64,000 nucleotides of DNA from Ulva prolifera. Its lineage: Eukaryota > Chlorophyta > Ulvophyceae > Ulvales > Ulvaceae. The stretch covers positions 1,240,001 through 1,304,000 of the forward strand of contig CM041199.1 in assembly GCA_023078555.1 (NCBI GenBank). The letters are read 5' to 3'. Made by a program: the position numbers and the translations under genes. Positions 11,309-53,278 of the stretch are shown piece after piece. Positions within the stretch are counted from its first letter, which is position 1. Every line of letters begins with the position of its first letter. The notes beneath the pieces were generated by a model. It had not been told where the DNA came from and searched no databases. It worked only from the letters and a program-made list of their open reading frames with translations.

Positions 11309-11329
11309 AGGGCCTCTGTCCTTTGTAAC
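11309..11329 (+). mobile_element. Minimal LINE 3' tail copy T1
   Basis: The last about 21 bases of the retrotransposon tail (GGCCTCTGTCCTTTGTAAC) sit between ACATACAT arrays on both sides. This is the expected product of a severely 5'-truncated insertion. It lies about 10 bp before the inferred 5' end of the full-length element, so at least two insertions hit the same TACATA array. Confidence 0.6.
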
Positions 11330-11338
11330 TACATACAT

Positions 11339-14300
11339 TCTTTGTCGTACGTCTGTCGTCTGTGCTGTGTCGTGGTCCCGATGTAGACGCATGCCAAAAG
11401 AACCCGGCTGCGGGAGGCAGCAAAAAGAAAACGAATAGGCCCTTAGTTGTGTTCTGTCGTCCGCTGTCGTGCAGCTGCAACGAATACGCGCGCCAGCTGC
11501 CAGTGTTCCGCCGTTCTGCAGCCCCACTAGAATGCCAGCGGACTAACCGCCAGTGGCCTGCAGCCTTGCCCATTTGGAACACCTAGATGTCTGTTCTATG
11601 TTTCGCCGGGCCTTCCTGGTGACCCGCTTGGCTGTGCAGCCGTCATGTCGGCGCGGGCCGCTGCCTGCCCGCGTGCCGATGTCCGGCAGTCCCACTGGCA
11701 ATCCTGCGGACTAGCCGCGGGTGATCTGCAGATTTGATTCGTAAAAAGTGTTGTGTGTTTGTTGTTTTAGTTTTGTGCCGTCTGGCCGGTTTAATGGCCC
11801 GTTAGACTGCACCGTTAGTGTGTCCGCTTCCAGCGGAACGAGTCCCTGCGTATGAGCTTTCAGTGTCCATATGACGGATGCAGCGCTAGTCTCTCCTCCC
11901 ATTCAAGCCTGTTCACCCACATTCGAGGAATCCATCGCGACGGGCCGAGGCTGCCTACTGCGAAGCTGCACGAACTCAATGCCGCTTACTGCTCTCACTG
12001 TGGCATATTCGGCTCCACCAAGACCCCTAAGGCGCATAAATGTGTGGGAGGTCAGAACAGGAGCTTGAGGTCAGGTCACTGCGTGCTGCCCGCCACACAT
12101 CCGGCCCGACAGCCCGCCCCAGCCCAACCCGCCCCAGCCCAGCCCATCCCTGCCCAGCCCGCCCCAGCCCAGCCCGCCCAGCCGCAGCCCACCCAGCCGC
12201 AGCCTGCCCAGCCTGCCCAGCCGCACCCCCATCAGCCACCCCGTCACTTCACCGAAGCCCCCGCCGCCGCCCACTACACCGCCCAGCCCAGGCCCTCCCC
12301 GAAGGTCCCGGACACCGTCCATCCGGAGTTCGGCGACGCAACGGCCGAGCTCCTCAGAGATTTCAACGATGCCAGCGACGCGTCAAACATCGACGGAGCA
12401 CGACTGGCCCTGGGCCGCTTCCTCGACTTCCCTGGTAAGGTTCTGTCGCTGAAGGGCGGGGACGGCACGGCGCGCCGCGCTCGTACATGCATCACGCTGT
12501 TCATGGACGGCGAGGAGCCCAGGCTGGCGGAGCCCACTCCGAGCCAGAAGCGCAGAATGAATCAGAACCAGGATCGCCGCCTGGCGGGCTCCGTCCACAG
12601 GTCACTGAGCGACGGTAATCTCCGCAAAGGCGCGGAGAAAGTGGAGGCGCCGCCCATCGCCAGGTACACCCCGGAAGTGCATGAGGAGCTGCGGCACCTG
12701 CATCCCGCAGAAGCGCTTCCCCCCGACACCCAGCCCGCCGAGCCCGCGCCCCCGCTGCAAATCGACGAGGTGACGCTCCTCGCCCTGCTCGACAAGCTGC
12801 CGAAGGGCAGCGGCCCAGGCCTGTCGGGGTGGACGTATGAGCACATCCGGGCTGCCGGCACGGCCTCCACGGCCGCGCTCACGGAGATTCACCGCTTCGT
12901 GAATGCGGCCCTCGCCGGCCGGCTGCCACACCTCCCGCGCTTGCTGGACTGCCGCCTCCTCCCGCAGGAGAAGCCACAGGGAGGCGTCCGCCCTATCGCC
13001 ATTGCAGAGACGTGGCAGCGCCTGGTAAGCCTGTGCGCCATGACCCTGTGCAGTGGCCTAGGTGCCTCCCTCGCGCCGCTGCAGGTGGGGGTCGGGGTGC
13101 CAGGGGGCGCGCAGAACCTGGGCCATGCTGCGCGCGCCGTGCTGCAAGCGTGGGACGATGTCGTGCTTGTGCAGCTGGACTGGAAGAATGCATTCAACAT
13201 GATGTCCCGTGCAGCCATCTTGGAGGCCGTTGCGTCTCACAAGCCTGCGCTGCTGCCCTTCGCCACCATGCTTTACAGGTTCCCCGCAAATCTCTACATC
13301 GAAGGCGCACCGCCCGGCACCGCTGCAATCACGTCGCAGCGCGGCGTGCGTCAAGGCGACCCCATCAGCCCGCTGCTTTTCGCCCTGGCCCTCCAGGGCC
13401 CCCTCCAGGCAGTGCAGGCCCAGCACCAGCCACCCGGGAGGGAGGTCACGGCCGCCCTCATGGCGTATCATGACGACTGCACCATCGCCGGGCAGCGCGT
13501 GGACGCCGCCGCCGCATTCCGTGCGCTGGTCTCGGCAGCAGAGCCCCTCGGGCTGGAGCCCCAGCTGCACAAGTGCACGGCCTACTCGCGCGACCCCCAG
13601 CATGCGGGATCCGTTGCGGCCGCGCTCGGCATAACGCATGCCACGGAGGGCACCGTCATCACCGGCACGCCCATCGGCACCCCGGCGTTCGAGTCGGCGC
13701 ACGCGGAAGCGACGGCCGACAAGGTGTGCGCCACCATCGAGAAGATGATGAGCCTGCCCCTGAAAGCGCAAGACCAGTTCTTGCTGCTCACGATGTCCTG
13801 CCAACGCCGCATGCTGCACTACGCCAGGGCGGTGCCGTGGGCGCACATTTCCGATCACATGCGCCGGACGGAGGCGTCTGTCCTGGCTGCGGTGAATGAA
13901 ATCATGCGCGTCCCGCGGGACGACCTGCGTGCGGCCGCACAAGCCGTCCTTCCAGCGCGCCTCGGAGGTCTGGGCATCATGTCCACGCCGCAGGAGGTCG
14001 CGGACGGAGCGTACCTCGCTGCAGCTGCGGTGAGCCAAAAGGCATTCGCAGGAGGCCCCGAGTGCATGCAGCCGTTCCGGGGGCCGCACGGGCAACACTT
14101 GCAGGAAACCTGGCAGGCCCTCAACGTCGCTCAGCAGCTCCATCCGGAGCTGCCCGGGCCGGCGAGCGGCGACACCATCGCCAAGGTGCTACCTGGTATG
14201 CAGCAGCGTATCACAAAGTTGGTTGCCCTGCACCGCCGGGCAGCTCTGCTTGCCAGCCATGACGTCGCCACGCTCGAGGGTGCATGCAGCTTGGCACGGC

Positions 14301-15504
14301 TTCGCAGCTGTGCTTGCCGTGCAGCCACCCTTTGGTTGAGCACCCTGCCGCTCTCCCAGGCGCTGCGCATGACTGACATTGAGTTCATGCTGTGCATCAG
14401 GTATCTCCTGGGCATGTCCCCAGCCCCTCCCAATGCGGTCGGCTCGCGCTGCGAATGTGGCACTCTCATACAGCCGCATGATCTCGACCACGCGATGAAT
14501 TGCACGCACAATGCGGGGACCTGGACTTCGCGCCACAATATCGTTGAAAAACAATGGCGCGAGATCGGGTCCCACGCGTGTGTGGCATCCACCCGCATCC
14601 CGCGCACAGCGCCGTTCGTCCGCGCGCGGCTCGCGGCCGCATCGAGGCAGATCCATGCTAGCCCGTTGGGCTCGCCCCCCCCTGCTCCGCCCCAGCCCGC
14701 CACCCAGGTCGCGGGCCCTTCGCGTGGGGCAGCCTTGCCCGCGGCGCCGATGCCTGCAGCCCCGCCGCCGCCGCCAACCGCGCGCGCGGACGAGGCGCCG
14801 GCACCTACGCCTGCTCCGGCCGCCGACGCCGATGCTGGACACAGCGCCCAGATGGGGCGCCACACGCCGAACGCAGCGCGGGCTGCGGCCCTGGCGGCGG
14901 CGGCGGCGGCGCCGGGTGGTCAGGATCCGGCGGGGCCTGGGGAGCAGGCCGCTGCCGCGCAGGCAACGGCGCTGGATCAGGTGTTCAGGGCAGTGGCCCA
15001 CGAGAAACTGGGGGACATCATGTTTATGCCGCCGGGTGACCCTTTGTGCATAGGAGATGTGTCGGTTGTGAACCCCTGTGCAGGTTCCTATTGCGGCCGT
15101 GCGGCCCGCGAGGACGGGGGTGCTGCGGAGACGCGGGACGTGCAGAAACGCACTGCTTATCGTTTGTACGACCCTGATGCGTATAGTTTTGTGCCGTTGT
15201 CGCATGAGACGCATGGTCGATTGGGACGGCCTGCCATGAATCACTTGAATCGGCTGGCGGAGGTTGCGTCTCGGTGTGGCAAGGTGAACCGTGCTTTGTT
15301 TGTGACGAATGCTCTGCGCCGGTTGAGTGTGGCGTTGTGCAAGGGGAATGCTCTTGTGCTCCGTGCGGGGCTTCAATCTTTGGCTGGCATCACCGGCCGA
15401 GCTGTGGTACGTGCTCGTGCCCGGCCTAGTGCCATGACTGCGTGAGTGGATTTGCGTGTGTATTCCTGGCAACGGCTCGCTTCCCGGCCTCTGTCCTTTG
15501 TAAC
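11339..15504 (+). mobile_element. Full-length RLE-type non-LTR retrotransposon
   Basis: About 4.17 kb. The 3' end is fixed at 15504: the truncated copies T2 and T6 end at the same CTTTGTAAC, and a clean target duplication follows each of them. The 5' end is inferred at about 11339, after TACATACAT at 11330-11338, which matches the TACATACAT right of the 3' end. Layout: about 510 bp of 5' leader, one long ORF (11852-15445), and a very short 3' UTR of 59 bp with no poly-A. There are no LTRs. The single ORF with a C-terminal restriction-like endonuclease places it with the early-branching (R2/CRE/Utopia-like) LINEs; the exact clade needs a phylogeny. Confidence 0.8.
11852..15445 (+). CDS. Retrotransposon polyprotein: zinc finger, RT, RLE
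   Basis: This 1197-residue protein is the enzyme of the element. Residues 5-28 form a C2H2 finger (C-X4-C-X12-H-X4-H), and a second Cys/His cluster follows at about 48-65; both should bind nucleic acid. A Pro/Ala/Gln repeat linker covers about 85-140. The reverse transcriptase spans about 300-620: KPQGGVRPIAIAETWQRL near 373, RQGDPISPLLFALAL near 500, and the catalytic box YHDD near 538, a variant of the usual F/YADD. A CCHC-type cluster (CEC...HDLDHAMNC) near 866 precedes a restriction-like endonuclease with GDVSVVNP near 1067, a following Lys/Tyr segment and ETHG. A second low-complexity linker lies at about 930-1020. The frame is intact with no stops, which suggests recent activity. The N-terminal ATG follows a stop-containing leader. 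Confidence 0.88.
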   Translation: MSFQCPYDGCSASLSSHSSLFTHIRGIHRDGPRLPTAKLHELNAAYCSHCGIFGSTKTPKAHKCVGGQNRSLRSGHCVLPATHPARQPAPAQPAPAQPIPAQPAPAQPAQPQPTQPQPAQPAQPHPHQPPRHFTEAPAAAHYTAQPRPSPKVPDTVHPEFGDATAELLRDFNDASDASNIDGARLALGRFLDFPGKVLSLKGGDGTARRARTCITLFMDGEEPRLAEPTPSQKRRMNQNQDRRLAGSVHRSLSDGNLRKGAEKVEAPPIARYTPEVHEELRHLHPAEALPPDTQPAEPAPPLQIDEVTLLALLDKLPKGSGPGLSGWTYEHIRAAGTASTAALTEIHRFVNAALAGRLPHLPRLLDCRLLPQEKPQGGVRPIAIAETWQRLVSLCAMTLCSGLGASLAPLQVGVGVPGGAQNLGHAARAVLQAWDDVVLVQLDWKNAFNMMSRAAILEAVASHKPALLPFATMLYRFPANLYIEGAPPGTAAITSQRGVRQGDPISPLLFALALQGPLQAVQAQHQPPGREVTAALMAYHDDCTIAGQRVDAAAAFRALVSAAEPLGLEPQLHKCTAYSRDPQHAGSVAAALGITHATEGTVITGTPIGTPAFESAHAEATADKVCATIEKMMSLPLKAQDQFLLLTMSCQRRMLHYARAVPWAHISDHMRRTEASVLAAVNEIMRVPRDDLRAAAQAVLPARLGGLGIMSTPQEVADGAYLAAAAVSQKAFAGGPECMQPFRGPHGQHLQETWQALNVAQQLHPELPGPASGDTIAKVLPGMQQRITKLVALHRRAALLASHDVATLEGACSLARLRSCACRAATLWLSTLPLSQALRMTDIEFMLCIRYLLGMSPAPPNAVGSRCECGTLIQPHDLDHAMNCTHNAGTWTSRHNIVEKQWREIGSHACVASTRIPRTAPFVRARLAAASRQIHASPLGSPPPAPPQPATQVAGPSRGAALPAAPMPAAPPPPPTARADEAPAPTPAPAADADAGHSAQMGRHTPNAARAAALAAAAAAPGGQDPAGPGEQAAAAQATALDQVFRAVAHEKLGDIMFMPPGDPLCIGDVSVVNPCAGSYCGRAAREDGGAAETRDVQKRTAYRLYDPDAYSFVPLSHETHGRLGRPAMNHLNRLAEVASRCGKVNRALFVTNALRRLSVALCKGNALVLRAGLQSLAGITGRAVVRARARPSAMTA

Positions 15505-15524
15505 TACATACATACATACATACT

Positions 15525-15635
15525 CGGCCGAGCTGTGGTACGTGCTCGTGCCCGGCCTAGTGCCATGACTGCGTGAGTGGATAAGCGTGTGTATTCCTGG
15601 CAACGGCTCGCTTCCCGGCCTCTGTCCTTTGTAAC
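15525..15635 (+). mobile_element. LINE tail copy T2 with 12-bp target duplication
   Basis: A 111-bp 5'-truncated copy starts CGGCCGAGCTGTGG and ends CTTTGTAAC. It is nearly identical to the last 111 bp of the full element. TACATACATACT occurs immediately before (15513-15524) and after (15636-15647). The insertion therefore landed directly in the target repeat behind the full-length element. Confidence 0.85.
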
Positions 15636-15984
15636 TACATACATACTTCGAGATGATCATGGCTTCAGCGGTCCCGCGTCCTGCTGCACTGCTGCGTACA
15701 GCCAATTCTGTCGGCACCCAGCTGCTGCGTACAGGTTCCCAGTGTGGAAGTTATGATCCCATGTTCATCCGCTACGATACCCCGCTCTCTGAGCATTTGC
15801 GATGCGTGAGGACATGCTTTATTGCTGGCTGTACGCCAGCGCTGTTTGCTGCAACGGCTTTGACGATCATGCGACGATGGGCTGCGTGGTTGATGACTAG
15901 CTGCTTCCTTGTGAAGCTGGATGCCTGTGTTTTTTCTAATTGTGAAGACGCTTTTGAAGTTTCTCATGTGCAGTGCACTTGCCC

Positions 15985-16076
15985 GTAGTGGGCGTGCACT
16001 GACCTGGTGAATGAGTGGATTTGCGTGTGAGTTCCTAGCGATGGCTCGATGCCCGGCCTCTGTCCTTTGTAACTAC
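15985..16076 (+). mobile_element. LINE tail copy T3 (diverged subfamily)
   Basis: Runs from about TAGTGGGCGTGCAC to CTTTGTAAC, followed by TACATACATACT. It shares GAGTGGATTTGCGTGTG and CCCGGCCTCTGTCC with the full element but differs upstream. It matches T4 at 35561-35659 better than the full-length element, so two tail subfamilies exist. No left-hand duplication is visible. Confidence 0.65.
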
Positions 16077-16229
16077 ATACATACTCTGTGTGATCACATA
16101 ACGATGACCACTGTTGCACCAACGCGAGGACAACATAATCCGGCCATGACTCCACATTCCCACAAACTGGGGCCACTGCTCTGTCACATTCACAAACTCG
16201 AACCTCTTATCTGAAGGTGTGGCTGTGGG

Positions 16230-16930
16230 ACAGGGTGGCGGAAGTGTCACTGGCATCTCCTCGGCTGTGGGCCCTGATAATAACAGGCTCACACAAACAG
16301 CCACTGGTTCAGTGTCCGGGCTCGGACACTGCAGGGCTGCTCACTACAGTGTGCACATATCCCAAGTCAATGCTTGATAACGACGTCGAACCACACCTTC
16401 AAGGAATTCCCATATGTTGATGCAAGTTGACACAGCTGACAATACTGTAAACCGGCTTCCAGAGTCCACTGCTAAAGCAATGATTCAAGAGAATGATGTT
16501 GTGGACATGCCGTACGCACTGCGTGCACCACTGTCCCTGGCAAGCAGGTTGACAATATACATCAAGAGATTTTCTGTTGATGAAAATGATGATGTGAATT
16601 CCCACTGCAGCACAGCACAGCGTAATCTCAGTCAAGTTTGGATTACTGCCAGATTTTCGAAGTGTCGTCTACAGCAGCTTCCTTCCCTGCGTTGATTTGG
16701 CTTCATGTAGTCCAACAGCACTGGTTCTGCTGAATTGCTGAGCGTTCCAACCCATTCTTGTGGGTCTTTTTGTCTGCTCCAAGAATGCTTGGCAGAATGG
16801 CCGATTGAAATGAAGACGGTGCCTTGTGCCTTGTGAGGACTGGTAACAAGAATATGTGATGTTCTCCAGGTCACTGCTGCAGGCATAGGTAAAAAAGCCC
16901 TTGCACCAAGTGGTGTCCCAAAAGATCAAT
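16230..16930 (-). pseudogene. Possible decayed coding remnant, faint MACPF-like motif
   Basis: On the minus strand, codon-like text is spread over two or three frames with shifts. One stretch (around KDPQEWVGTLSNSAEP, near 16740-16790) has the W-x-x-x-L-x-x-x-x-x-P spacing found near the end of MACPF/perforin-like domains. A segment near 16900 in a neighbouring frame is weakly reminiscent of their G-x-H motif. Near 16130-16210 another frame reads RFEFVNVTEQWPQFV. No single frame is open, no signal peptide or start was found, and the rest of the domain is not recognisable. It could be a broken gene, several short exons or chance. Confidence 0.2.
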
Positions 16931-17380: not shown

Positions 17381-20300
17381 TTACTTTGCCTCAGCAGGCT
17401 TATCCTCTGCTGCCTGTGCCGTGGCCTCCTTGGCATCTGCTGCCTTGACATCTTGTTTGGCTTCCTTGACATCACCTGCTGCCTTGACATCTTGTTTGGC
17501 CTCCTTGGCATCTTGTTTGCCCTCCTTGGCATCTTGTTTGGCCTCCCTGGCACCTGCTGCCTTGGCCTCCGGCTTGTCCTTGTCTTCCTCCGGGTCCTGG
17601 CACAAGGTCTTGATGTTGTACTTCTTCAGCTCATCGTAGTCATCCAGCACGGCAACACCACACGAATTCCTCATCACCTGCAGCCGGCCCCTCGCACTGT
17701 CTGTCTCTCTTTGGTACCAGCAGCACAGCAGCACTGCCCCTCGTGCACTTGAACATTGCCTGGAAGACACCGCCCAAAGAGGGCCCAAAACAGCAACAAG
17801 GGCATGAACACATCAACCTCAACTGCCACGTGCACACGGCGTGGGATAGATGTACAAGGGCGAACAGCGCGGCAGCAGCACAGGCGCCGCAGCCGCGATC
17901 CGCACGCCCCCGCGTTCAGTGTGGGCACCGTTAAATACAGTTCGCTCAGAGCAGGGCTAGCGAGCTGGGAGTGTTGATGCCATGCATGAGACAGCGGCCG
18001 CCCCACGGCGCTCTCGAAGTGTGTCTCCAGCGTGTCAGGGTATGAGCCGCGGGGGTGCACATTGCACATTGCCAGAGAACCGCGGGCCGGGCGGCACCTC
18101 AAACACAGCTCCTGTGGAGCACTCCACAGTAGCTGTGTATTTCAAGGGCACAGTCATAGAGAGGGTGGCAACACCGCCATGGCAACGCGTAACCACACAC
18201 ACACACACACACACGCCGCTAGTCATAGCGGACGCCGACCCATGCCGACACGCCGAAGCCCGCCCCGGCCTCCGGCCAAAGAAAGATGGCCCACATCCAC
18301 GCCAGCTTGGAGCTGCATATGTGGACAGGGGGAGGCGCACGGCACGCACCTGCAGGGAGATGGTTTTGGCGGCGCCCTTGAGCTTCACCGAGTGCGGCGG
18401 TCGCGGCACGTGCGCGATCGCGCCGTCTATCGCCTCCGCCCGGACCACGCCCGCCGGAGCCGCGCGGTGCTCGTACAGCACCGCCGTCGTCAGCGGCTCC
18501 GCGCCCGCCGCTGCACAGCACGCAGCACGTCACAGCGCGGCCGTGGTGCACCAGCAGCCGCACGATGCGCAAACATGTGCCATGCGGAAGATTTGCAATC
18601 CTCAGGCCGTGCAGAGGTGATGCTGCCTGGCATTTCTGTTTCAGCTGCTTGAGTGAGCTATGACAGACGACGAGCGCTCGGTCCATTCACGGCAGAGCAC
18701 CGGCTCATCCAGGCAACGCGTCGGAAAATGTGTGAAGGTGGGGGTGCTGAGGTATGACACGGGCAGTACACCAGGAAGTACGTAGCCATGCAACGTAGGG
18801 CACTGCCAGTTCCAGATGGTCGGGACGACAAGGCGGCCGCGTGTTGTGTGCGGAGGTGTCGCAGAGCTACTTTGGCGGACGGCAAGGGGGGCTGCCGGCC
18901 TCCTCGTTACAAAGCTTCGCTGTCGCGGGGCCATCTGTCCGCCGAGGCATTGGCCGCAGCCGCCACGTGGAAAAAATACCCCGCACGTTCCTCAAAAAAC
19001 GAGCACCACCGTACCGGCGGGCACAACAAGCGCCGATTCTCGATGGCATATATATATGCATTGAATGTATCCAGAGACGCAGAACAGGTACGGGCAGGTG
19101 CAGGTTCAAGGGCACGTACAGCAGTCGATCGCCATCGTGATGGCGGCCTTGGCTGCCGCGTCGATCTCTGCCGGCTGCGAGCGCACGACGTGTGTGCAGG
19201 GCAGAAGGCGCAGGCAGTGCCGCAGCCGCAGCACGCGCGTCTCCTTCGCCTTCCGCAGCACGTGCTTCACCACCTGCACCACAACCCCACGAATCACCCT
19301 GGTGTGACGTGGCACCGACGTGGCTGCCGCATGTGGCCACAGCCGGAGGCCGCGCGCAATCGTATCCCAGCAAAGCGCCAAACATGCTCCATGCACTTGC
19401 TAATCAGTTTCCATGGTTTGATTAAGAAAACGAAAAGACTTTCAATAAGCCTGTTTGGAGCACCCGAGGCTGCTGCCACAGCAGCATGCCCTGTGCTGTC
19501 TGTGGCGGAAACTGCTAAAGGCACCCCCAGCAGGCACTCGCGAGTGATCGGCAGAGGTGGAGTCAGGAACTGGCTGCAGGGTTGCCCCGCCAGGGTGGAC
19601 CACAGACACCATCATGATACATGCGAAGCCAATAGTAGATAGATCTGTATGTGTCAGTGCAGTAGCTATTCTCACGATACATCAAACGTCAACGGTGGCA
19701 TGGCACTATGCAAGACTTGCACCAGAGGCATGCGCCCGTTTGACCGATGCTCGAGTAAAGCGTTAGCGGCAGGCAGGGCCACGAGGGCAGGGTGGCAGCG
19801 GAGCTGACCTTACCTCGCAGGGGCCGGGCATGTCGGCGCCGACGAGGGGCATGCCGATGAACATGCACGTCTTGATGCCCGTGTCATGCACCACAAACGG
19901 CTGCTTCTTCACGTCCTTTAGGTCCTTCACCTCTGACGATATCATCTTGGAGAAGTCGAGCGCGTCCCCCCCACCGCCATCACCATTGCTACCGTCTTCA
20001 CCGCCGCCATCAGCGGCGGAGGCGGCTGCGGCTGCGCCGCCGGCAGTGTCCGCCGCAGCTGTGCCTGCACGTCCCACAGGCAAGTCATTTAGGGATGAAC
20101 ACAGGCAGCAGCAACAGTAAGACAGGGGGCGCCGGGGATATACCCACACTGGCCGTATATACCTACACTGGCGCCGCGTGGGTACATCCGTGTAGCAAAT
20201 CCGCACAAGACACGCAGACAGACAGGCCCTAGTCTACCACGGACGCAAACCTCTTGCACTATGCATCGGCGAAAGCGAGATGGGCTGTGCATGTGGTGAT

Positions 20301-31924: not shown

Positions 31925-32034
31925 TGAGGTGAAGCTGCGTTGATGCTGCGGACGGGAAGGTAGGCGGCGGAACTGCTCTGTTCACGCATATGAGCCTCAG
32001 GGATTCAAATCAGCCCTGCGTCGCCACCTCAGCA

Positions 32035-32138
32035 CCAGTGTTGGGTGATCGGGCCCGATCACATCGAACGACTCCAAACATTCAGATCTAAGTTCGGGGT
32101 GGCAGCCCTGGAAATGCTGCAAAGCGACCCAACACTGG
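32035..32138 (+). mobile_element. 104-bp MITE, copy A (best preserved)
   Basis: Perfect 12-bp terminal inverted repeats, CCAGTGTTGGGT and ACCCAACACTGG, bound 104 bp. The 6-bp target duplication TCAGCA is perfect (32029-32034 and 32139-32144). The interior has GATCGGGCCCGATCACAT next to the left end and GCAGCCCTGGAAATGCTGCA near the right, itself a partial hairpin. Confidence 0.92.
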
Positions 32139-33840: not shown

Positions 33841-36800
33841 ATGGCGTTCTCAATGTCGACTTCAATGCTGTTTATGGCGGCTGTGCCCATGGCACTAGGT
33901 GCTGTCGTTGGGCCCGCTGCTGATCGCATAGGGCATCCAAGCAAGTTCGGAGTCGACATTCGTCCGGACCCGTCATACGTACCAACACGGTAATCATACC
34001 TCAGTTTCTCTTACCTCTGGGGTCGTTGTTTATGTATTTTTGTGCTTGCTCTCTCGTGATCAAGGTTTCCGGGAAGACTACGTGTCTACATGCCATCGCC
34101 GGAAGGCCTTGTTGCGCCATGCTCGTCGCTGCCGAAGGAGCACTGTCCAGTAGCCACATCTTCAGCTGGGTTGCCTGGATTGGGTGCGGTGTACCGATGA
34201 ACTAGGACGACCTAGCATCAAGCACCCATGCCACGGTCCGGCAAAAGTGCACAACTCGCCCGAGTCGATGAAATCACGAGTCCGGATACACAGGTTGACA
34301 GAGACCGTTGAAGAAATTGATGAGGATGCCCTGCCGAAGGAACTCGACTGGCGCGGTGCGTCTCCACCTGCCACGCACTTGCATCGTCTGCGCACCTGCG
34401 CTGTGCGTGCTCCAATGTCGCTGCGCATGTTGTACCCCAGAACCTCTCTCTCACAGGCAATGTGTGTGTAATGTACCCCTCACAGCATGTAGTTGCTGCT
34501 GGTGTCGTCTAGCTCTGATTCACATTGCTGTGCAGACAAGGATGGACACAACTACTGCAGTACCACTAGGAACCAGCACATCCCGCAATACTGGTACGAC
34601 AGCGTTCCCTCAAGCGATACAAGCACTGTCTACGAAGCATGAATCCTGCTGATGCTGTGCCTGTGGATGTGGTTGTGCACAGAAGCTGCCTCGCGATCAC
34701 ATGTCTCCAACTCATGCTCCACTCCCCAATGTACAATTTCCTACTCACGTTCCGGCCAGTCAGCATTACGCTGATGTGTCACTACAATGCGGCAGCACAG
34801 TAACAGTGCAGAGGGGCCAGCCCTGGCACAGTTTCCACATGCCCTGCGCTTCCCACCACACCACGCACCATTGCCGGCCATGGGCTCCCCCGCACTTCCA
34901 CCCTTCAATCCCTCCATGCACACAAACACTCACGGGGTGGTGTTGGGGTGCAGCGGCAGCTGCTGGGCGTTCGGGTCGACCTCGGCGCTGGCCGACCGCG
35001 CCAACATCTTCCTGAACAAGGGCGCGTGGCCGGACACCTACCTCAGCACGCAGCACGTCATCGACTGCGCGAAGGCGGGCTCCTGCCAGGGTGGCTGGGA
35101 CGGCAGGGTATACAAGTACGCGCAGGAGAAGGGCATCCCCGACGAGACGTGCAACAACTACCAGGCGAAGAACCAGGAGGTTTGCAGCCTCCCCCGCCAC
35201 GCTGACCCCCCCTTTTCCATTCGAGGAAAAGAAGCAGTATCTTCCGCAAACCCTGTGTGGGCCTCATGTGCGGGTTCTTGTCGGGCGTCAGGTCGTGTCT
35301 GCTTCGGTCGCATGCCTCCCCATTAGACCTCTGAATCCTACACCACCACAGCGACAGCTTCCACCGTTGCCTCGGCGGCCGGCCGCGCTCGGTGGGACCT
35401 GCGCAGCCCATGCGTGGACAGCTCCAGCATGGTCGCGCAGGCGTGGCGTGCCCCTGGCCTCGCTGCAATGCAAGCATACTGACATTCACACACCCCACAC
35501 ACCATCTACTCACCATTCCCATCTGCTGCGGAACACATACGTGTACTGTGTTTGCCTGTAGCTACAAAGAACAGAGGCCGGGCATCGCGCCGTTTCTCGG
35601 TATTCACTTGCAAATCCACTCATTCACCAGCTCCGTGCACGCCCACTATGGACAAATGCACTGTGTTTGCCTGTATCTGTGTAAGCTCCTGCAACATGTA
35701 TTACATATTAGGTTTGACACTCATCATACCATCAATAATAAGCATAATCATGGTCGTGTATCTATGTTGTCTGTGTTACCGACAGCCCGGCATGCAGTGT
35801 GACGAGATGAACTCCTGCTACACCTGCGAGGGCAACGGCCACTGCTACCCGATCAAGCACTACCGCCGCCTCAAGGTGTCGGACCACGGCCGAGTGTCGG
35901 GCCGCGCCGCGATGAAGAAGGAGATCGCCGACAACGGCCCCATCTCGTGCACCATCTTCGCGACCGCCGGCCTCGACGCCTACTCCGGGGGCATCTACAC
36001 GGAGTACCGCGAGAAGATGTGGACGAATCACATCGTGAGTGTCATCGGCTGGGGGGTCGAGGATGACGTCGAGTACTGGTGCGCCTCCACGCGGCACGCA
36101 CATGCATGTGGGCCTGCGGTGCGGCCGTTGCGGTGCGGCCGTTGCGGTGCGGCGAGTGCTGGAGTCCCCCATGTGCTGTGTGCTCCGAGGAAGTGCCTGT
36201 TCTGTGATCTTGACTGCAGCTCAGGGCTCCTAGGGGCTGAGTGAAGCCGGGCTGCATGAGGCCTCGCAATGGGGGGCAAGTTGTGTATGCCTCGCTGCCG
36301 CGGCGCGTGCCAGTCCGCGCAGTGAGCAAAGTGAGCCTGTGATTGTTTGCTTTTTCTTTCAAAGTAGCCTGTGAAGCGAGCTGTGGAGTGGAGCCCCTCT
36401 GTGGACTCCCCCCGGCCGGGTTCCGAGGCCGACATGTGGAGCCGTGGCGCCCTGCTTGAGCTATCGCATGCTTCTGACACACCAATGATCCCGATATTAC
36501 TGATTATCACAGTCAACATCACAATCATAACGATGAGGCGAACATCGCCATGCTCGATCCATCGCAAGCGTCCCTCGTGAGCATCCCACGGGGAGCATCG
36601 CAAGCATCCCACATGACGTAAGAAACTGTGGTCAAGTATTCATACGCACCAGGCGTGACGTGCGTGCGCATGCGTGCAGGATCGTGCGCAACAGCTGGGG
36701 TGCTCCCTGGGGCGAGCAGGGCTTCTTCCGCATCGTGACGTCGGCGTACAAGAACGGCACCGGCGACTCGTACAACCTCCTCCTCGAGGGCGACTGCGGC

Positions 36801-36908: not shown

Positions 36909-38036
36909 TGCATGAGGCGCATGCATGTGGGGGTACCTCGCATTGATATGAGGGTGCGTGCGGCGGCTGTGTGGTGGAGCGGGGAGGGGACGGCGGGTTT
37001 GTGGGGGGGCGTGGTGTATCGAGGTGATTCGTGCATCGGGGTGCGTTGTTGCGTTGGGGTGCGGGGCATCAGAGTTCGCGGAGAGGTGGCGGTGAATCGT
37101 CGCTGTGTGTCTGGGCTGGGTGGCAGGGAGCTCGGAGTCAATGGAGGGTGTCGAGTGTACATACCGCATGGTTGAACGGCCGACTCGAACGCTGTCAGCG
37201 GCTCGTGAGAGTTCGACGGCGGGTGGCAGCCTCACTGCGGCGGCAGGCTCGAGGCATCAGTGCAAGCATGTCCGGAGGCGTGTGCAGGCCTGGCCGGTTG
37301 CGCCATGCCAGACGCAATTACCGAAGGTACTGGCGGCACACATTCAGCCATGCCATGTGGAAGTGCCAGCGAAGTGCCTTGTCCTGCAACGCTGCCCAGA
37401 TGCAGGACCTCGGCGGCTGTCGGCGCCGCTCACATATCGCCCTTGCAGCCCGATAGTAGTGCAGCTAGGGAGCAGCTGATCAGTATCTGCTGTGTGCGAT
37501 GGCCCGAATGTGGCCATCAGTGACAGCTCGAACGTAGGCAGTTTAAAATGGTACTCTCTCTACCCGTGTTTCGTGGTGCATCTGTTTCCATCATTGAGCG
37601 CACGTAGCACTGTCCGTGCTGTGTGCGCCTCCGGCCGTAGAGCCCGCCTCTGGGCCTTGCGCCGGTGCTTTGCACGGGTGGCCGGGTGCGTGTGAACGCG
37701 TGCATGCGCTGCGGCCTGTGCACACCCGCGACGCTGCACAGCTCTGCCGCGTGTCTGTGCGGATGGTTACATTGTCACGGTTATTTATTTATTTTGGTTT
37801 TGGTTACATTGTCCCGGTTAAATTGTCAAGTGTGAAGCGTCCGCCATGGGAAGGATGCAGCAGTGCATCTTCTGTAGATACGCAGGAAGCTTGCGCGCTG
37901 ACGGTGCAGGCCGGCATGTGCACTGACAAACCCCGCATGCTTGCCCGGCACTTGCACCGCAGCAGCAGCAGCAGCACATACGTACACGCCGCTGCACCAC
38001 ATGCTGCTGCAGGCGATCACAAGGCACGTGTGCCCA

Positions 38037-38140
38037 CCAGTGTTGGGTCGTCGGGCCTGATCATATGTAACAATTCCGAATATTCAGGTCTAATTTCTGG
38101 GTGGCAGATCTGGAAATGCTGCAAAACGACCCAACACTGG
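38037..38140 (+). mobile_element. 104-bp MITE, copy B
   Basis: Terminal repeats CCAGTGTTGGGT and ACCCAACACTGG are intact. The 6-bp duplication is TGCCCA on the left and CGCCCA on the right, one mismatch. The interior reads TCGGGCCTGATCATATG, so it differs from copy A mainly by point changes. Confidence 0.88.
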
Positions 38141-38577
38141 CGCCCACCATCCGCCACACACCACCAAAGACGTGTTGCAGTGGTCTGTACGCCATGTTGG
38201 CGCTCCGCCATGTGCTGGGCCACGCCCTTGTAATTTGTTTCCGCAGGACAGGGCTCGCCGGACCTCAAATGCGGTCCAGACCGTTCGACATCATCAACGT
38301 CCGGGCTGGACATAGTTGAGTAAACCCGAATTTACATTTCTCCAACTAGCCAGGCTCACACAACTGGGCACTGCCGCAGCACCTGTCACACAGCATCTGC
38401 GTGGGCCTGTACCCGCAGCCCTCACCACACAGCACACAGCACACAGCGCGCTGCAGCGCGGCACTGCCGGCAAGGCTCCCCGCCCCGGCAACACCCCTCC
38501 CGTATCCCCTCATATACAAGATACACTACAAGCTTATCGGAACATCATGCACACAAACATCTTTTGCTGGAACCACC

Positions 38578-38688
38578 GGCAGGGCTGTTGTACGCGCTCG
38601 TGCCCGGCCCAGTGCCATGAATGAGCGAGTGGATTTGCGAGTGGATTCCAGGAAACGGCTCCATGCCCGGCCTCTGTCCGTTGCAACT
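38578..38688 (+). mobile_element. LINE tail copy T5
   Basis: GGCAGGGCTGTTGTACGCGC through CCGTTGCAAC, followed by TACATACATGTAG. It matches the last about 110 bp of the full element with several substitutions (for example TTGCAAC for TTGTAAC). No left duplication was found. It lies about 35 bp beyond the stop of the minus-strand PPOX-like gene, so it may be part of that gene's 3' UTR. Confidence 0.75.
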
Positions 38689-38722: not shown

Positions 38723-41700
38723 CTACGCCTCCGCGGCCTGCATGCCGGGGTTGTGGGGCGACCACTCGGTGACGGCAGAGTGGGTGATCGGCACCGCGTC
38801 GGCACGCCACAGCGACGCGGAGGCGACGTCAAAGACGACGGTGCGCTGGGCACCCGGCAGGTCCGTGGCCTCCCAGTCGATTCTGCACAGCACACTCGTC
38901 ATACGTCAGATGCGGTGTCAGCCACCTCTGCAGTTACAAGCATGACCCCGGCAGGAAGCTGTAACCTTGGTCATGAAGTGTTCAGGGGCATGCTAGCTCG
39001 CACGGGCACATGCGTCGGCCTTGCGCCCCCGCCATTGGCGGATTACAGCACCAGGCATTATACACGCAACACGTGCGGCGCAGGCAACACATGCAACACA
39101 CGCAACACATGCAACACATGCAACACTCGCAACACATGCAACACATGCAACACATGCGGCGCAGGCAACACATGCAACACATGCGGCGCAGGCAACACAT
39201 GCAACACTCGCAACACATGCGGCACAGGCCGTGACCGCCGCAGATTGCGGGGTTGAATTCAGAGCAGTTGTGCAAGGCGCTGAGCCCGTGTTCATGCCCC
39301 GCTCTCCCCCGGCTGCCGCAGCCGGCGATGCCGTGGAGAGTGTGCGTATACCCTCACGCATATACCAAGACTCGAGCGCTCCAGCGCTTAGAGCAGAGAC
39401 CCACACACATGCTCGTGAGTCGACCCACACATCATGCAGGGCCTGCAAGTGCTTGGGAGTGGCATGGTGTCCCAGAAGCGCAAGCAGAGAGGAGGTCACA
39501 CACCGGGCGGTGCCCTCGGTGCGCAGCATCGCGCCCGACTCATAGTCGACAAACAGGAGGCTCGTGTGGCCAGAGGCGGCGATGTTGCCGAGCGTCATGA
39601 AGAAGTCGTTGCCGCGGTAGTCGGGCCAGCGCAGCTGCGCGCCGCCTGCGGCCACCTTGGCAAACCCCCGGTCGCCGCCGCGGTGCGACACGTCGGCGCC
39701 CTGCGTCGCCGCTGCACCCCCCGCGGCCACGCCGGCTGCGGTGCTCGCAACGAAGAACGTATCTGCATGATGGGCAGGGGGAGGGTGTCTGGAGGTGGAC
39801 TGTGTTGCAGAAGCAGTAGGAAATGTGACTGAAGAGGATGCAAGTGAATGTAGATGAAAGTTTGATTGCTGACCATGCCATGTACCCATCCGGAATTTAT
39901 CGCGATGGCCACAGGAGTTCGTGCCGAATCGTGCTGTGCTGTGCTGTGCCTTGGTGCCTGACAAGAGCTGCCACGTGTGCATAGCCCCTTCAGCAGAAGG
40001 ACGCCGCAACTTGCGAGCGAGGTGGCAACCAGGCAAGTACAGGGCGATGAGAGGGCATGCCGTAGCACCCATGATCAGGCATGATCGTAATTTTATATAT
40101 ATCGTTTGCAAGCAGTGTGAGCGCCATTAGGCGAGCTATGGCCGCTTCACGCTCCCGTCCGGTGTTGGGTAATCGGGCCCGATCACATAGAACAATTCAG
40201 AATATTCAGATCTAATTTTGGGGTGGCAGCCCTGGAAATGCTGCAAAGCGACCCGACGCTGCTCTCGTCTAGGCACAGCGCCGGTCGCAGTCATACGTTA
40301 TCACTGAGAACACATACACCATAAGCGCCCGCACATGTGCGCGCCACGCGCGGCAGTTGATCGCCGACCATCGATCGGACGATGCAGCGTGTGGCGCCTA
40401 CCTGCTTGCTCCACGATCGCCGCCATGGCGTCGTTCAGGGCCCCGTCGGTGACCTCAGCCGCCGGCACATCGCGGGGGGCCCCCGCAGCCGCCGCGGCGT
40501 CAAAGCCGACGTCCCGCTTCTGAATGTACTTCGGGCAGTTGCCGAAGCTCTGCTGGACCGCGACGGTGAACGCGGCGCCGGGGCGTGCTGTGCTGTGCTG
40601 CGCTGCGGGGATGCCAGCGGCCGTGCTGTGCGACACGACGCCGTTCGCGCGGTTGCGGCGCCGCGTCTCGTGCTCCAGGCCGAGCACGCCGACGTGGGCG
40701 CCGACCGTGAAGTCGGCCGCGGCGGCGCCGCAGACGGCGGCCTCGGAGAGGTCGAAGTGGAGCTCGGTGGCGCTGGGGGCCGAGATGAAGCCTGCACGGG
40801 CGCCCGGGGGTGGGTTGGGGTGCGTATCCGCAGATGCGCATGGCCACAGAATTGTCTGAGGGGCGGCCTGTGGGCTTCGTACGCCGGCATGCACCATACG
40901 CAGAACTAGTATGGCTTGTATGCAGGTGGTGATGTCGAGCAGACCAGCTGTGAGTGTTCCGAGCGGCACCCTCGCAGGGGATGCACCAGCGAGCCCCGGG
41001 CAGCGCTCGCGACTCCGGCCATGTACACCACGCTTCTCGACTTGCCCGCAGAAAGGTTGAAGCACATACTCCATCCACACCGCCGTCTTTTCTCGTTGAA
41101 GGTACATTTGAATTCAATCACACAACACGCTAGGCAGTGTCTTAGAACTCAGCCAGCACTTCCTTCTCATTCTGAGGATTCAAACAAGTTCAAGCTGCAA
41201 GGGACGTGGGGGGGGGGGGGCACCTGCGGGCCCGGTGATGACGGCGGCGCGCGGCGCCTCGCCTGGGGGCTGCACGGCCACGTAGATGACGGTGCGCCTG
41301 CCGAAGAACTCCTGGTGCTGCTCCGGCATCTCAGGGCGGATGAACCTCTCGTACTTGCGGATGGTTGCGTCCGGGACGTGCGCCTTCTGTTGAATCTGCA
41401 TGCATGCATGACCTGTGGTGCTGCGCTGCGTGAGGCTCCGGGCGTGGAGGTGTTTGGCTGCATGCGCTGACTGTGAGTGATGCCAATGGGAGAAGCCTGC
41501 TTGAACGCCATAGAGCGGTGTGCAGTGGCGATGGTGCACAGGTCAACGATCGTTTGTTTGCCGAGAGGGTGGCTGGTCAAACGTGCGATGGTCGAGTCTG
41601 CGAGCCGGTCAACACCGGTGGCAATGATGCTGCTGTTGTGAGGGCTTCATGCGCTTGCCCACCCAACCGCCCGCAACTTAAGTTCCGCGTACTGCAACAT

Positions 41701-47957: not shown

Positions 47958-48511
47958 GATCGAGTTGCGTCGGGGTGCGGTTGAATCTTTCTGAATAGGC
48001 TACAACCAATCAATCTTGCCAACAGTACTATGAGAAAACAAACGAGGATTTCAAGACATTGCTGAACGCCCTATCTGTACAATTGCTTTTGACGTCGAGG
48101 ATCCTTAGCTCATGACGAATGCACCGCGCTTTGGCAGCCTCACATGAAACGCTTCAGAATCGTCGATACACGCCAAAGCGCAGTTCGATAAGCGACGCAG
48201 TTAATTGGATCGCTGTGCATGGACAAATAGCTGCATGCTTTGCGACCGAGCTCTTTCCAGCCACGCCTGATGCTCGTTGACGAAGCAGCCCAGTGCCATG
48301 CATGGCCACGTAGTCTGGTCATGTACTGAGGTAGAAAGGACACTGGTTGATGCTGTATTTCATGAGCAGCAGCAGTCGCCTGGTTCAGTGGCAAGCAGTA
48401 TGGGCTCATGAACGAGTACTCCCGAGCTTCTCGGGCCCAGGGCACATTGCCTATGCAGAAAACGTACACATGCCACTCCTGCGTTGCAACCGTCCGGTCA
48501 TGCCGTGTGGA
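47958..48511. other. Upstream region of the F-box-like gene
   Basis: It should hold the minus-strand promoter of the F-box-like gene. No TATA box or coding region was identified. Confidence 0.4.
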
Positions 48512-48615
48512 CCAGTGTGGGGTTACTTTGCAGCATTTCCAGGGCTGCTACCCAGAAATCAGACGTGAATATTCGAAATTGTTACCTATGATCGGGCCCG
48601 TTGACCCAACACTGG
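48512..48615 (-). mobile_element. 104-bp MITE, copy E
   Basis: Ends are CCAGTGTGGGGT and ACCCAACACTGG; the interior is inverted relative to copies A-C. The 6-bp flanks are TGTGGA and TGTGGC, one mismatch. The length is again exactly 104 bp. Confidence 0.88.
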
Positions 48616-48803
48616 TGTGGCCGTGCCATGCTTTCAGTGCCACAGCTGGCTCAGCGGCCCTGCAGTCACTTTTGTTGTATGACATGCAACACATGTGTAC
48701 TTCACAGGGCACATGTCAAGCTACGACAAGGCTCATGCGGCACGGCAAACTCAAGACCTCTCACGACAATTTCGTCTTTTTGCAAATCATTGCAAGATCC
48801 GGG

Positions 48804-48950
48804 AGAGTTTTGGCAATCCACTGGATTGAATCCAGTGGTATTGCCACTTTACCACTGGATTGCCACAATGTGAAGTAAAGTAAATCTGAATTTACTGAGC
48901 CGTATCCTATTGGACATTGACAACTCCGATTTAACGGGACCACACATGCT
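48804..48950 (+). repeat. Composite R6 + R3 repeat
   Basis: R6 units (TTTGGCAATCCACTGGATT, CCAGTGGTATTGCCAC, CCACTGGATTGCCACAATG) run directly into R3 (AAGTAAAGTAAATCTGAATT...AACGGGACCACA). The direct adjacency suggests that R6 and R3 are parts of one mobile element. The three R6 units alternate in orientation and can fold into a hairpin. Confidence 0.6.
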
Positions 48951-49544
48951 GAAGGGGTAAACCACCTGGAAACCCCCCCCCCCCCCCCAGACGATCGTAC
49001 GCAACTCACAGGGCCTCCTCCTGTGCTAAGCGAGGTGGTCACGTACGGCCGTTTCGATTCCCCCAAGCGCACGCAGAATCTAACCCACGACCTCCTGAAA
49101 CGGAGGGGGCAGCTAATATTATCCATATGTCAACACATCTCATCTCGCAGCAAGGCACGCTGAGCCACGTCTCATCCACGACGGCTCATCTATGACTTCG
49201 GTGTACCTCGCCTTGCTGTGTTACAAGGATGGCGTGGCGACGCGGGCAGCCCCGCAAAAGAAGCAAGCAGATCAAGCACACACTCAGACGCCCACGACCG
49301 CATTACCCACAAAATCCAACACGTTCTCAGCAGACAACACAGATCCACAGACCGCCAGGTACAAACCCACATGCACACACAAACACAACGCCTGGCTGGT
49401 AGGCGGGGTGCGGGTGGGGGTGGGCGTGTGGGTGTACATGTGCTTGTGGGTCTTGGGTGCGATGCTTGTGAGTGTTTGTGGGTGTGTGGCTGTGTAGCTG
49501 TGGCCGGCGCGGGTGCTGGTGGTGCGTCGGTGTGCTGTGTGTGC
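48951..49544. other. Unassigned repeat-rich DNA
   Basis: Contains a run of 17 C at about 48973-48989, GT-rich stretches near 49400-49500, and TTACAAGGATGGCG at about 49220, an R4-like start in plus orientation. R4 in the opposite orientation follows at 49545-49632, so the two may bound a 400-bp element. No gene is seen. Confidence 0.4.
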
Positions 49545-49632
49545 TGCGTGTGGCTTGTTGCGTGGTGTGCGGTGCCCCTGGTTGCTGCTCGCGGTGCTAC
49601 CTGCCTTGCTTGCTTTGTCCTTGTAACACAAA
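49545..49632 (-). repeat. Dispersed repeat family R4, inverted copy
   Basis: Its reverse complement matches 6066-6160 closely (TGTTACAAGGACAAAGCAAG, then the GGCAGGTAGCACCGC and GCACCGCACACCACGCAAC blocks). Confidence 0.65.
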
Positions 49633-49725
49633 CACAACACAAACACAATGCCCATCGTCGTGCTGTGCCGTGCTGTGGTGGCACAGCCAGACGATGTTGT
49701 GGCAATCCAGTATACCACTGGACCC

Positions 49726-49947
<222 letters not shown>

Positions 49948-50794
49948 TATGTCTCCGTCTTCATCTGATTATCAATTGACTGCCAAGCACTGCACATTGT
50001 ATGACAACATGCATGCACACCATGAAAAAGTGCCAGGCACTGCCAGTCATCTCTGCGTCAGAAATAGTCCTGCAGTGCACACTGTACAGCTGACGGATGC
50101 TGGCTGGCCAGCGGTGTCTGGAGGGCTGGTGAGGCCTCTTGCCTGGCAAGTGTTCATTCCATGGCCGGCCAAGGCCTCATTCCAAGGTCCGGACAAAGTT
50201 GGACAGGCAGGTACCACCTCGGACAGCAGCAGCCATGAAGCAGAATGCAGCTAGCTGCACACTGCAACGCATTCATTTGAAGACTGCCCCCAAACGCACA
50301 CACAACGTCGGGTACTGTACGAGCAGCTGGGACTGTGGACAGCGGACATGTGCGTCACCAAGACCTCCAGACAGGCAGGCAGGTTCGTCACCACTTAAGA
50401 CAGGTTTACGTCAGATGGACAGATAGACGGTGCATATGAAACATGCTTACATGCTGTGTGAGCAGCAGTGTCTCTGCAGACATACTGTGCGCCTTCCGCC
50501 GACACAGCCCCCGTGAGGGCCTGCGAAACAGCTGGCCTCGCCAGACCGAACTCGGATGACCTGTGCAAACGTGATCACAACCCTGGCCGACACAAAATAA
50601 TATTAGCATATGCATGGGCCAGCAGGAAGCCGCGTGAATTCGAATTCAGTGTCAAGTTTGTAGCCGCAGGCCAGTGCAGGGCAGTCACATGCATCGCAGC
50701 AACCCAGAGACAAGAGAGCTTCCACGGCTGCGGTAGCTGAGCATGCAGTTGCGCTAGCACAGGTCAGTGAATGCCTCATAGCATACATACGTAC

Positions 50795-50911
50795 CTCCTG
50801 CGGATCCTCGAGGTGATGTATGTTGCGCAGGGTGGTCATTCCGGCGGCGGTGCCGATTGCGGTCCCTGTAGCTGCGAAAAGTTCACGTTCGAAGCAGCTC
50901 TGGAGCCACAT
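50795..50911 (-). CDS. Candidate first exon of an unknown small protein
   Basis: ATG at 50911 opens 39 codons (MWLQSCFERELFAATGTAIG, then TAAGMTTLRNIHHLEDPQE) and ends at a strong GAG|GTACGT donor. The GTAIGTAAG motif suggests a short membrane helix. A plus-strand TATAAAG at about 50990 would serve a divergent transcript, not this one. Following exons are not identified; a block near 50420-50550 with open frames is possible. Confidence 0.3.
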
Positions 50912-51121
50912 CTGTGTCAAGACCTGTTCGTGGATGTGCGCTGCTGCCACACGATTCCAGGCGGGACACAATTTGCCCCTGTTTCGCGCGTATAAAGCCG
51001 AGGCCGACAGCCACGGTATGAGCGGCACGTGCGCGCATCTGATCCGTGTCAATAGCAAACTTGCACAATTGCAACAGTCCTTGTGCTCCTCTCTAAAGTT
51101 ACCTCCCTCAGCCTGACCCAC

Positions 51122-52920
51122 GTGACCGACACCGTCATGCCTCGTGCTTTACGAAGCGAGCATGACCACCGGGGTCCCATGCCATGCAGTTGCACTGCCG
51201 TGGCACTGCAGCTGCGCTGGCGCTCGCGGCGGTCCACTAATTAAAAAGCATTGAGCGTGTACACATTGAAGTTGTCTCTTACTGTGCTGTCTGGACATTG
51301 ATAGGCGCTGTGCGACCTGGTTGGGCAGGACAACGTTGCCACGACTCGACTCCCACGAGCCTGCAGCGGGGCCTGCCAATTGGCTGAAATCTAGAACAAT
51401 GTGCTTGCTACAGTGAAGCCGATCCACTCCCATACATGCTGATCGTTGAGCTTATGCAGTTGCTGCCGTGTCGGGGAGATTGCCGTGTTGCCGTGTTGAT
51501 GCAGTGGCCCGTGCCCCTCGGCCAGGCCGCGTGTTTGCTGCAACACAGCTCCGTTGCAGCGAAGAAACAACAATGCCAGTATTTGTATGTTGGCTGGGTG
51601 GTCAGTCTATAACTGCGCTTGCGTTGCAAAAGCTCTGCAGATGCTAACACTGATGTTGACCTCGCCCGCGGCTCTGCAGCAGCGCTCAACACACTAAAAT
51701 GAACCACAAATTCACTGTTGTTTTATTGCTGACCACTTCCTTGTACTGTAGTGAAACTGCCGGAAATTGCACCGCAACGGCAATTGATTTGCTCGAGTGG
51801 CCGCGCGGGACAATTCTGATCGTCGCTCTAATACAACATCGCCGCAGTGCTATGACATTCAACAATGTGGTTCCGAATGTTTTTTGTCTGCCTTGCCTTT
51901 AGCCCTGATTATTACGCAACAGCTGGGCAGGTCTCAGCTGTGGTTTACTGCCAACATCCGAAGACAAGACAGTGCTGGCAAGCAAGCACGCCCACACAAC
52001 GCGAAAACATTGAATTAGAGGTTAAATTTCTGCTCGGCTGTAAGCCAGTCAGGGCAGCTTGCAGAGACAAGCTTCTGGCGAAAGGCACTTTGTTTTGCAG
52101 CCCGCTCTGGCCAACATCGCAGGCATGCACGCATCGCAGCGCTGCCTGTTTTGATATCCCCTTCAAGCTTCTTGTAGTGGAACAGCAGACAGCAGTCGTT
52201 CGTTTTAACGTTGCAATACTGGGCAGTTGCACTTTCCGGTGGTGACTGCTCGTGGCAGACGTCACATCCACCTACACGCGGTCGTCAGATGCGCGTGACA
52301 CACCCACCCACGTGGGGTGGCGTGACCTCAGCGAGGTATACCTAAAAATGACCCTTCTTGTGTTTGTACTACTCGAGGTGTTGACGTCTGTTGTCACCGA
52401 CCACTGGTCAGATGGCCAGCACATCTTGACCTCTTCGACCGAATTGACACTCCCAGGTTGATGTAGCTGGTAGAGAGAAATATTTAACCTTGATATATGC
52501 AGATATGTCGAGCTGCGCAGGTCTTGTGCGCGAGAACTCGCCACGAAAAACTCCAGAGTTCGACGGCGCGAGGCGGCAAGGGCGGTTTAGGTCCTGCGAA
52601 AGATGTTGCACCTGTTGCAGGCATACACAATGCATGTCGGCCTGAATTTGTCATCGTCCTTACAATTAGCAATCGATGCTGTTACCTAAGCACAGTAATG
52701 CGGGGGCGCTGCAGACGCCCCATGGAGACACAGGGCGGCGTACGGCGGTGCCATCCAGCGTCATGCATGGGTGCAAGACGGCGACTTTGTGACAGACGAC
52801 ACGCGTGAGCGTCAGCACGGCGGCCGGTCTCATGTAAATGCCGAGTAATGGACACATCTTGCAAGACGACACAGCATCGCATGACAATCCACTGAAGGCA
52901 CCATATACATTGACCTAGCG
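51122..52920. other. Intergenic/unassigned DNA
   Basis: Moderate GC with several plus-strand frames of 60-125 codons (for example 51865-52245) and no recognised domain, splice chain or bias comparable to the real genes. No RNA gene was identified. Confidence 0.4.
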
Positions 52921-52936
52921 GGTTTTCATTGCTGCT

Positions 52937-52940
52937 GTAC

Positions 52941-52971
<31 letters not shown>

Positions 52972-52992
52972 AATATATATACATATATGGTC
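52937..52992. repeat. AT/TATA microsatellite
   Basis: ATATATAT and ACATATAT units over about 55 bp. The end, TACATATATGGTCA, forms the target duplication of the next LINE tail copy. Confidence 0.85.
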
Positions 52993-52993
52993 A

Positions 52994-53122
52994 ATCTTTG
53001 GCTGGCATCACCGGCCGAGCTGTGGTACGTGCTCGTGCCCGGCCTAGTGCCATGACTGCGTGAGTGGATTTGCGTGTGTATTCCTGGCAACGGCTCGCTT
53101 CCCGGCCTCTGTCCTTTGTAAC
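52994..53122 (+). mobile_element. LINE tail copy T6 with 14-bp target duplication
   Basis: A 129-bp copy starts ATCTTTGGCTGGCATC, inside the ORF of the full element, and ends CTTTGTAAC. TACATATATGGTCA precedes it (52980-52993) and follows it (53123-53136) exactly. It is essentially identical to 15376-15504, so it is a young insertion from the same lineage. Confidence 0.92.
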
Positions 53123-53278
53123 TACATATATGGTCAGTGCGCATGCGGGCTGCGCTCCTGCGCAAGCAGCTCTGCAGCGCTCCTGCGCAAAACGCGGCGT
53201 CGACGTCAGTGAGCCTGAGCTGCATACTTGCTGATCGCAACGGCCGATGCATGTACATCGCGTCACTGCCGCGCGCGC

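Follow-up and report, generated by a model that had tools for sequence, protein, structure and literature searches.

Insertion of a LINE at TACATRCA-like sites of the Ulva prolifera genome and its stacking in arrays

A LINE family of this genome inserts repeatedly at targets that begin with TACA. The tail of the LINE, GGCCTCTGTCCTTTGTAAC, has 1,449 copies with at most two mismatches in the 88.9-Mb genome of 44 contigs, compared to 2 matches for a reversed-pattern control. TACA stands directly 3′ of 631 of the 777 exact tails genome-wide (81%), and the next base is T in 718 and another base in 59. In the window, by which we mean the whole stretch of 64,000 nucleotides analysed here (contig C4, positions 1240001-1304000), TACA is found at 472 of 128,000 strand positions (0.37%), so that only about 3 of the 777 exact tails would be expected to precede it. 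A first-pass annotation had proposed repeated insertion at TACATA-starting targets, and the genome-wide count strongly supports this. We consider it likely that this one-ORF LINE inserts by target-primed reverse transcription (TPRT) at CATRCA|TACATRCA-like sites, duplicating the target and building arrays. A young, high-copy LINE is a naturally replicated experiment in LINE target choice: with more than 1,000 tails, intact ORFs and many readable duplications, protein recognition and RNA pairing become separable statistically. Its enzyme, R2-like but with a short target of tetranucleotide type, would also be useful to compare in work on R2-based DNA insertion.

The junction sample takes in every tail match with no more than two mismatches in the window or in 70 sampled loci. 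These loci contain 90 of the first 100 exact-tail places in the contig C1 listing, together with neighbours; the other 10 places were omitted for length, not for flank. After removal of duplicates and omission of short stretches, 103 junctions remained, 93 of them with an exact tail. TACA comes next in 84, TACATA in 62 and TACATRCA in 60. The 3′ junction logo, built from this part of the copies, thus bears out the enrichment of TACATA, which has a background of 0.0003 per position in the window. Nineteen of the 103 junctions are not followed by TACA, which means that the preference is not strict. A hold-out from contigs C2, C3, C4 and C6, consisting of 14 small regions that carry a single tail variant with 79 exact copies in the genome, gave 15 junctions, 14 with TACA and 1 with TATA; this test and the strict duplication test below were defined only once the data had been seen.

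The features in the window are as follows.
11170..11305, plus strand: 5′-truncated tail from family 2, a second repeat family, with the end GTAATC plus ATGCATACATACATACAT
11306..11329, plus strand: T1, a 24-nt 5′-truncated piece whose last 19 nt match the LINE tail
11339..15504, plus strand: full-length LINE, 4166 bp, with ends taken from genomic matches and the junction series
11852..15445, plus strand: single ORF of the LINE, 1197 aa
15446..15504, plus strand: 3′ UTR of the LINE, 59 nt, ending GGCCTCTGTCCTTTGTAAC
15525..15635, plus strand: T2, a 111-bp 5′-truncated copy, with the 12-bp TACATACATACT at 15513-15524 and 15636-15647
15648..16073, plus strand: T3, a 426-bp 5′-truncated piece of a different element, with the 12-bp TACATACATACT at 15636-15647 and 16074-16085
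35561..35659, minus strand: T4, a 99-bp copy with tail CTTTGTAGC and an exact 16-bp duplication, TACAGGCAAACACAGT
38559..38687, plus strand: older copy with tail GTTGCAAC, then TACATACAT
52994..53122, plus strand: T6, a 129-bp copy, with the exact 14-bp TACATATATGGTCA at 52980-52993 and 53123-53136

Tails ending CTTTGTA(A/G)C and followed by TACA, as first described, occur at six window sites, and the exact duplications of 12 bp (T2 and T3), 14 bp and 16 bp reported with them are all present. At the older tail ending at 38687 no convincing target duplication was found. Two more CTTTGTAAC words, on the minus strand at 18914 and 1310, lie outside any tail match and have no TACA next. The array had been described as three insertions stacked between 11.3 and 15.6 kb. 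The stacking holds, and the array extends over 11.3-16.1 kb with four pieces that have a common tail, namely the 24-nt T1, the full LINE, the 111-bp T2 and the 426-bp T3. T1 is flanked on both sides by TACATACAT (11297-11305 and 11330-11338), and the full LINE is bordered by the second of these and by TACATACATACATACATAC (15505-15523). Six genomic matches place the 5′ end of the LINE, as they start at query base 30-32, which corresponds to 11338-11340. The last ~60 nt of the LINE are common to T3- and T4-type elements, and folding of the 3′-tail RNA gave no structure beyond that of shuffled sequences (z 0.81). The whole array stands behind the family-2 tail at 11170..11305, which supplied its first target and has 100% identical matches of 134-137 bp at 15 other sampled loci.

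A target duplication was called when the 3′ flank had a 5′ copy located outside the element and ending at the point where homology to the element starts; as a control, the 3′ flanks were exchanged among loci. The strict set comprises calls with a score of at least 10, a threshold that by itself sets 11 bp as the shortest duplication length. Three candidates of more than 25 nt and a nested artefact were dropped before counting; L075, where the match lies within the element body, and L008/518 were also dropped from the loose set of duplication calls. Strict duplications are present at 47 of the 103 junctions, compared to 8.2 expected from the flank swap. Outside recognised own and family-2 tails there are 25 (1.3 expected), a further 16 lie in the own tail of an older copy (4.2 expected) and 6 in a family-2 tail (2.7 expected), and the duplications in tail targets are made up in part of the shared motif. 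Strict duplications range from 11 to 22 bp, and 36 of the 47 measure 11-14 bp. Looser calls with scores of 7-9 are not above chance (14 real versus 20.7 swapped) and were kept out of the target logo. Fifty-six junctions are without a strict duplication, and some of these have 5′ ends beyond the sampled stretch. In the hold-out, 7 of the 15 junctions have strict duplications, and in the five of these that lie outside tails both copies begin with TACA. Copies of at most 200 nt account for 42 of 54 duplication-called copies (loose calls in an incomplete sample), compared to 4166 bp for the full element. The family thus combines 5′ truncation, a constant 3′ end and target duplications, as expected of a non-LTR retrotransposon.

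Because the target duplications carry TACA in their 5′ copy, the motif belongs to the target. Of the 25 strict targets outside tails, 17 read TACA before insertion, 24 have CA at +3/+4, and 21 have CAT at +3 to +5. By position, their 5′ copies have T+1 in 19, A+2 in 22, C+3 in 25, A+4 in 24, T+5 in 21, A or G at +6 in 21, C+7 in 16 and A+8 in 17, and upstream C-6 in 16, A-5 in 21, C-2 in 16 and A-1 in 18. At least three of these targets (L011, L027, L080) adjoin diverged family-2-like tails, as judged by eye. In the logo of the 25, CATR recurs with a four-base period and the core at +1 to +5 is sharp; the wider context is CATRCA|TACATRCA. The motif first given as TACATA is enriched, and it is better written in this longer form with a near-invariant CA at +3/+4. 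The match to the upstream CATRCA is 4.16 of 6 in the 25 targets versus 2.73 in 78 other TACATRCA sites (p=0.0024), these control sites being DNA near elements in which the upstream match is weaker, not absent. The enrichment of upstream bases argues for protein recognition on both sides of the nick. Endonuclease preference and RNA pairing had initially been offered as alternatives; the data favour protein recognition and are no more than suggestive for RNA pairing.

It is possible, though in our view short of probable, that the target is set mainly by the RNA. The 3′ flank of the transcript (UACA...) would then pair with the nicked bottom strand and template the first bases after GTAAC, and the preference would be inherited through the flank too. 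Were the RNA to extend past GUAAC with UACA, TACA would be expected in the 3′ copy even at targets that lacked it. Duplication pairs that are discordant at +1/+2 do mostly have TA in the 3′ copy and not in the 5′ copy, which is the original target, as in TGCATACAGTGCC/TACATACAGTGCC (L016) and CACATACACATATG/TACATACACATATG (L023). Among strict pairs, L016, L023, L035, L072, L074 and L100 follow this direction and L077 the reverse; the hold-out contributes one pair in the first direction, L131 from a family-2 repeat tract, and none in the reverse, and all 61 duplications with a score of at least 7 give 9 to 1 (p=0.021). However, the strict ratio of 6 to 1 is not significant (p=0.125), 7 to 1 with the hold-out gives ~0.07, and the loose set includes the scores of 7-9, which do not exceed the swap control. 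Two of the six strict pairs and the hold-out pair lie in repeat tracts, where slippage could suffice, and L035 changed at position 2 only. Several sites kept a start other than TACA in both duplication copies (GACA in L009, AACA in L019, TGCA in L022 and CACA in L036 and L082), and an RNA end cannot pair with the upstream target bases. Passages of PMC12222951 describe a parallel in R2Tg, which requires 3′ homology of 4 nt or more and matches 4-5 nt of it at its off-target insertions; R2Bm, unlike R2Tg, does not need 3′ homology according to passages of PMC12222951 and PMC10499050. The asymmetry at +1/+2 is a suggestive lead for RNA templating. We think it rather unlikely that the target preference is partly RNA-borne, with a transcript bearing UA or UACA that picks and primes the next site, rewrites the landing motif and spreads it.

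Stacking arises because each insertion leaves new copies of TACATACA. The genome contains 424 TACATACATAC tracts (BTACATACATAC, B = not A, a count that takes in only tracts not preceded by A), and 259 of them (61%) are preceded by TTTGTAAC of the LINE tail. Many targets of the LINE family are therefore of its own making, and no further mechanism has to be invoked for stacking. Insertions into own tails lie exactly at the GTAAC|TACA boundary in 11 of the 16 strict cases. Special self-recognition was considered as a cause and set aside, since the GTAAC|TACA register has the longest downstream TACATACA and the tails hold so many of the tracts. Tandem duplication of finished copies by unequal exchange is a very improbable origin of the arrays. 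L080 contains an exact repeat of one 69-bp unit, but adjoining copies differ in truncation point and subfamily and have their own duplications (T1, the LINE, T2 and T3 in the window, L008 and L037), and arrays as mere tandem duplication were rejected because the units differ. Hardly credible is the idea that TACATACA belongs to the element as a simple-repeat tail which the reverse transcriptase (RT) adds: it does follow 81% of the exact tails, and family 2 seems to bear a CATA-repeat tail, but 5′ duplication copies, 17 of 25 with TACA in the strict non-tail set, bear the motif in unrelated surroundings (TACATATTGCAAAGAG, TACATGCATGCAAGCCCG, TACATATATGGTCA), and the idea was rejected on this ground.

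Family 2 (11170-11305 in the window; L025, L072 and L109-L128) has the tail GGATACGGCTATGTAATC plus ATGCATACATAC, with 171 genome copies at no more than one mismatch. Each of the 20 sampled ends begins ATGCATA or ATACATA, and in 13 of the 20 the LINE studied here or the T3 element follows within 32 nt. Other family-2 copies extend 5′ into an open frame of ~390 aa that by eye is like a LINE C-terminus and has no Pfam match. The T3 element (L013, L020, L008) is at least ~850 bp long, with an ORF of ~242 aa, also without a Pfam match, and its last ~65 nt are common with the LINE. It is probably a non-autonomous passenger that uses the 3′ end of the LINE.

The 1197-aa ORF contains an RT of the LINE type at residues 374-579 (Pfam RVT_1, E 7.6e-11). 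Its best match in the PDB is R2Tg (E 7.7e-6), so that among solved structures R2 is closest; three R2 sequences match at E 7.7e-6 to 0.013 and L1 ORF2 at E 0.35. A C2H2-like finger at residues 3-28 is below the cut-off (Pfam zf-C2H2, E 0.55), and the APE family is absent from the Pfam matches of the ORF at E<=1. At residues 867-884 there is a CCHC-like knuckle, CECGTLIQPHDLDHAMNC, with the spacing C-x1-C-x10-H-x3-C. This differs from the CX2-3CX7-8HX4C that a passage of PMC5678591 gives for the knuckle located before the restriction-like endonuclease (RLE) of RLE LINEs. The knuckle is followed by SRHN and then LGD...IGDVSVV...QKRTAY, an order of motifs that resembles the RLE order given in PMC5678591. 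Candidate RLE residues are D1054, D1069, K1099 and Y1103. In the candidate KX2KY motif the second K, described in the same source passage as the less conserved one, is replaced by A. For the C-terminal 381 aa, Pfam gave no match and the PDB none of significance (best E 0.14, low-complexity), and a single-sequence AlphaFold model of residues 291-1197 has a mean pLDDT of 39 and no usable fold. For the label RLE-type in the first-pass annotation, gene order and motifs fit, and C-terminal homology and fold lend no support. Since the label draws on motifs while the homology and fold tests were empty, a C-terminal RLE is probable, not proven. From 9,525 first-look candidates, 39 protein matches were scored and 28 of these span residues 1-1197; 27 of the 28 are stop-free, which suggests that the family is young and probably active. 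A search of viral contigs for relatives found none.

Motif enrichment, the presence of the motif in both duplication copies, the duplications themselves and self-stacking are observed, and for nuclease type, protein contacts, nick order and RNA pairing we infer the following scheme. A young multi-copy LINE with a zinc finger, an RT, a CCHC-like knuckle and a probable C-terminal RLE would insert by TPRT. Its protein most likely reads about -6 to +8 around the nick, where CA(T) at +3 to +5 forms the core. Once nicked, the bottom strand, with a TGTA-type end, would prime cDNA synthesis on an RNA that ends in ...CUUUGUAAC; this RNA may carry a few further UACA-like bases able to pair with the primer. 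Cleavage of the second strand some 11-18 bp downstream would duplicate the target and leave TACATACA at both ends, free for the next insertion. Head-to-tail arrays of mostly 5′-truncated copies would result, and the target would spread.

The LINE is a new family within a known kind of targeted LINE, to which the microsatellite-targeting RLE LINEs belong. Dong, of the R4 clade, is an RLE LINE that targets (TAA)n. Togen, with (TG)n, and some HERO families are further examples given in a passage of PMC4640811. The LINE resembles these in having a microsatellite target, and its repeat (TACA/CATR) differs from theirs; the logo is CATR-periodic, and the targets often comprise 2-3 repeat units only. 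A search of open-access titles, abstract openings and passages found no TACA- or CATA-targeting LINE. Like R2, the LINE has a single ORF with an RT, flanked in the R2 order by a C2H2-like N-terminal finger and, C-terminally, by a CCHC-like knuckle and a candidate endonuclease. According to a passage of PMC10499050, R2Bm melts its target around the nick between -6 and +5 and is sensitive to which bases lie there, a span similar to that of the target logo of the LINE. R2 targets the 28S rDNA, whereas the targets of the LINE are dispersed, short tetranucleotide-like tracts of the TACATRCA type. Unlike R2, the LINE shows frequent 5′ truncation and has a C-terminal domain without a sequence match.

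Tails and full copies of the LINE cluster at 10.89-11.20 Mb on contig C1 and at 2.93-2.96 and 3.54-3.69 Mb on contig C9, where several full copies are close together. In the C1 listing, 23 of the first 100 places with a tail and TACA fall in its last 0.3 Mb. The LINE Zepp is APE-type and targets poly(A) tails. In Chlorella and Coccomyxa it forms clusters of nested copies, as described in a passage of PMC3446292. The LINE studied here is likewise clustered, and it stacks through a target motif regenerated by duplication. By analogy with Zepp, the clusters on C1 and C9 may possibly mark centromeric or silent regions. Two other repeats were observed in the window. A dispersed repeat of 99-117 bp is found at 10750-10866, 32033-32137, 38031-38147, 40163-40261 and 48513-48617, with 80-84% identity to the copy at 10750, and is present in other loci; a 36-bp near-perfect palindrome lies at 11000-11035 (94% match to its own reverse complement).
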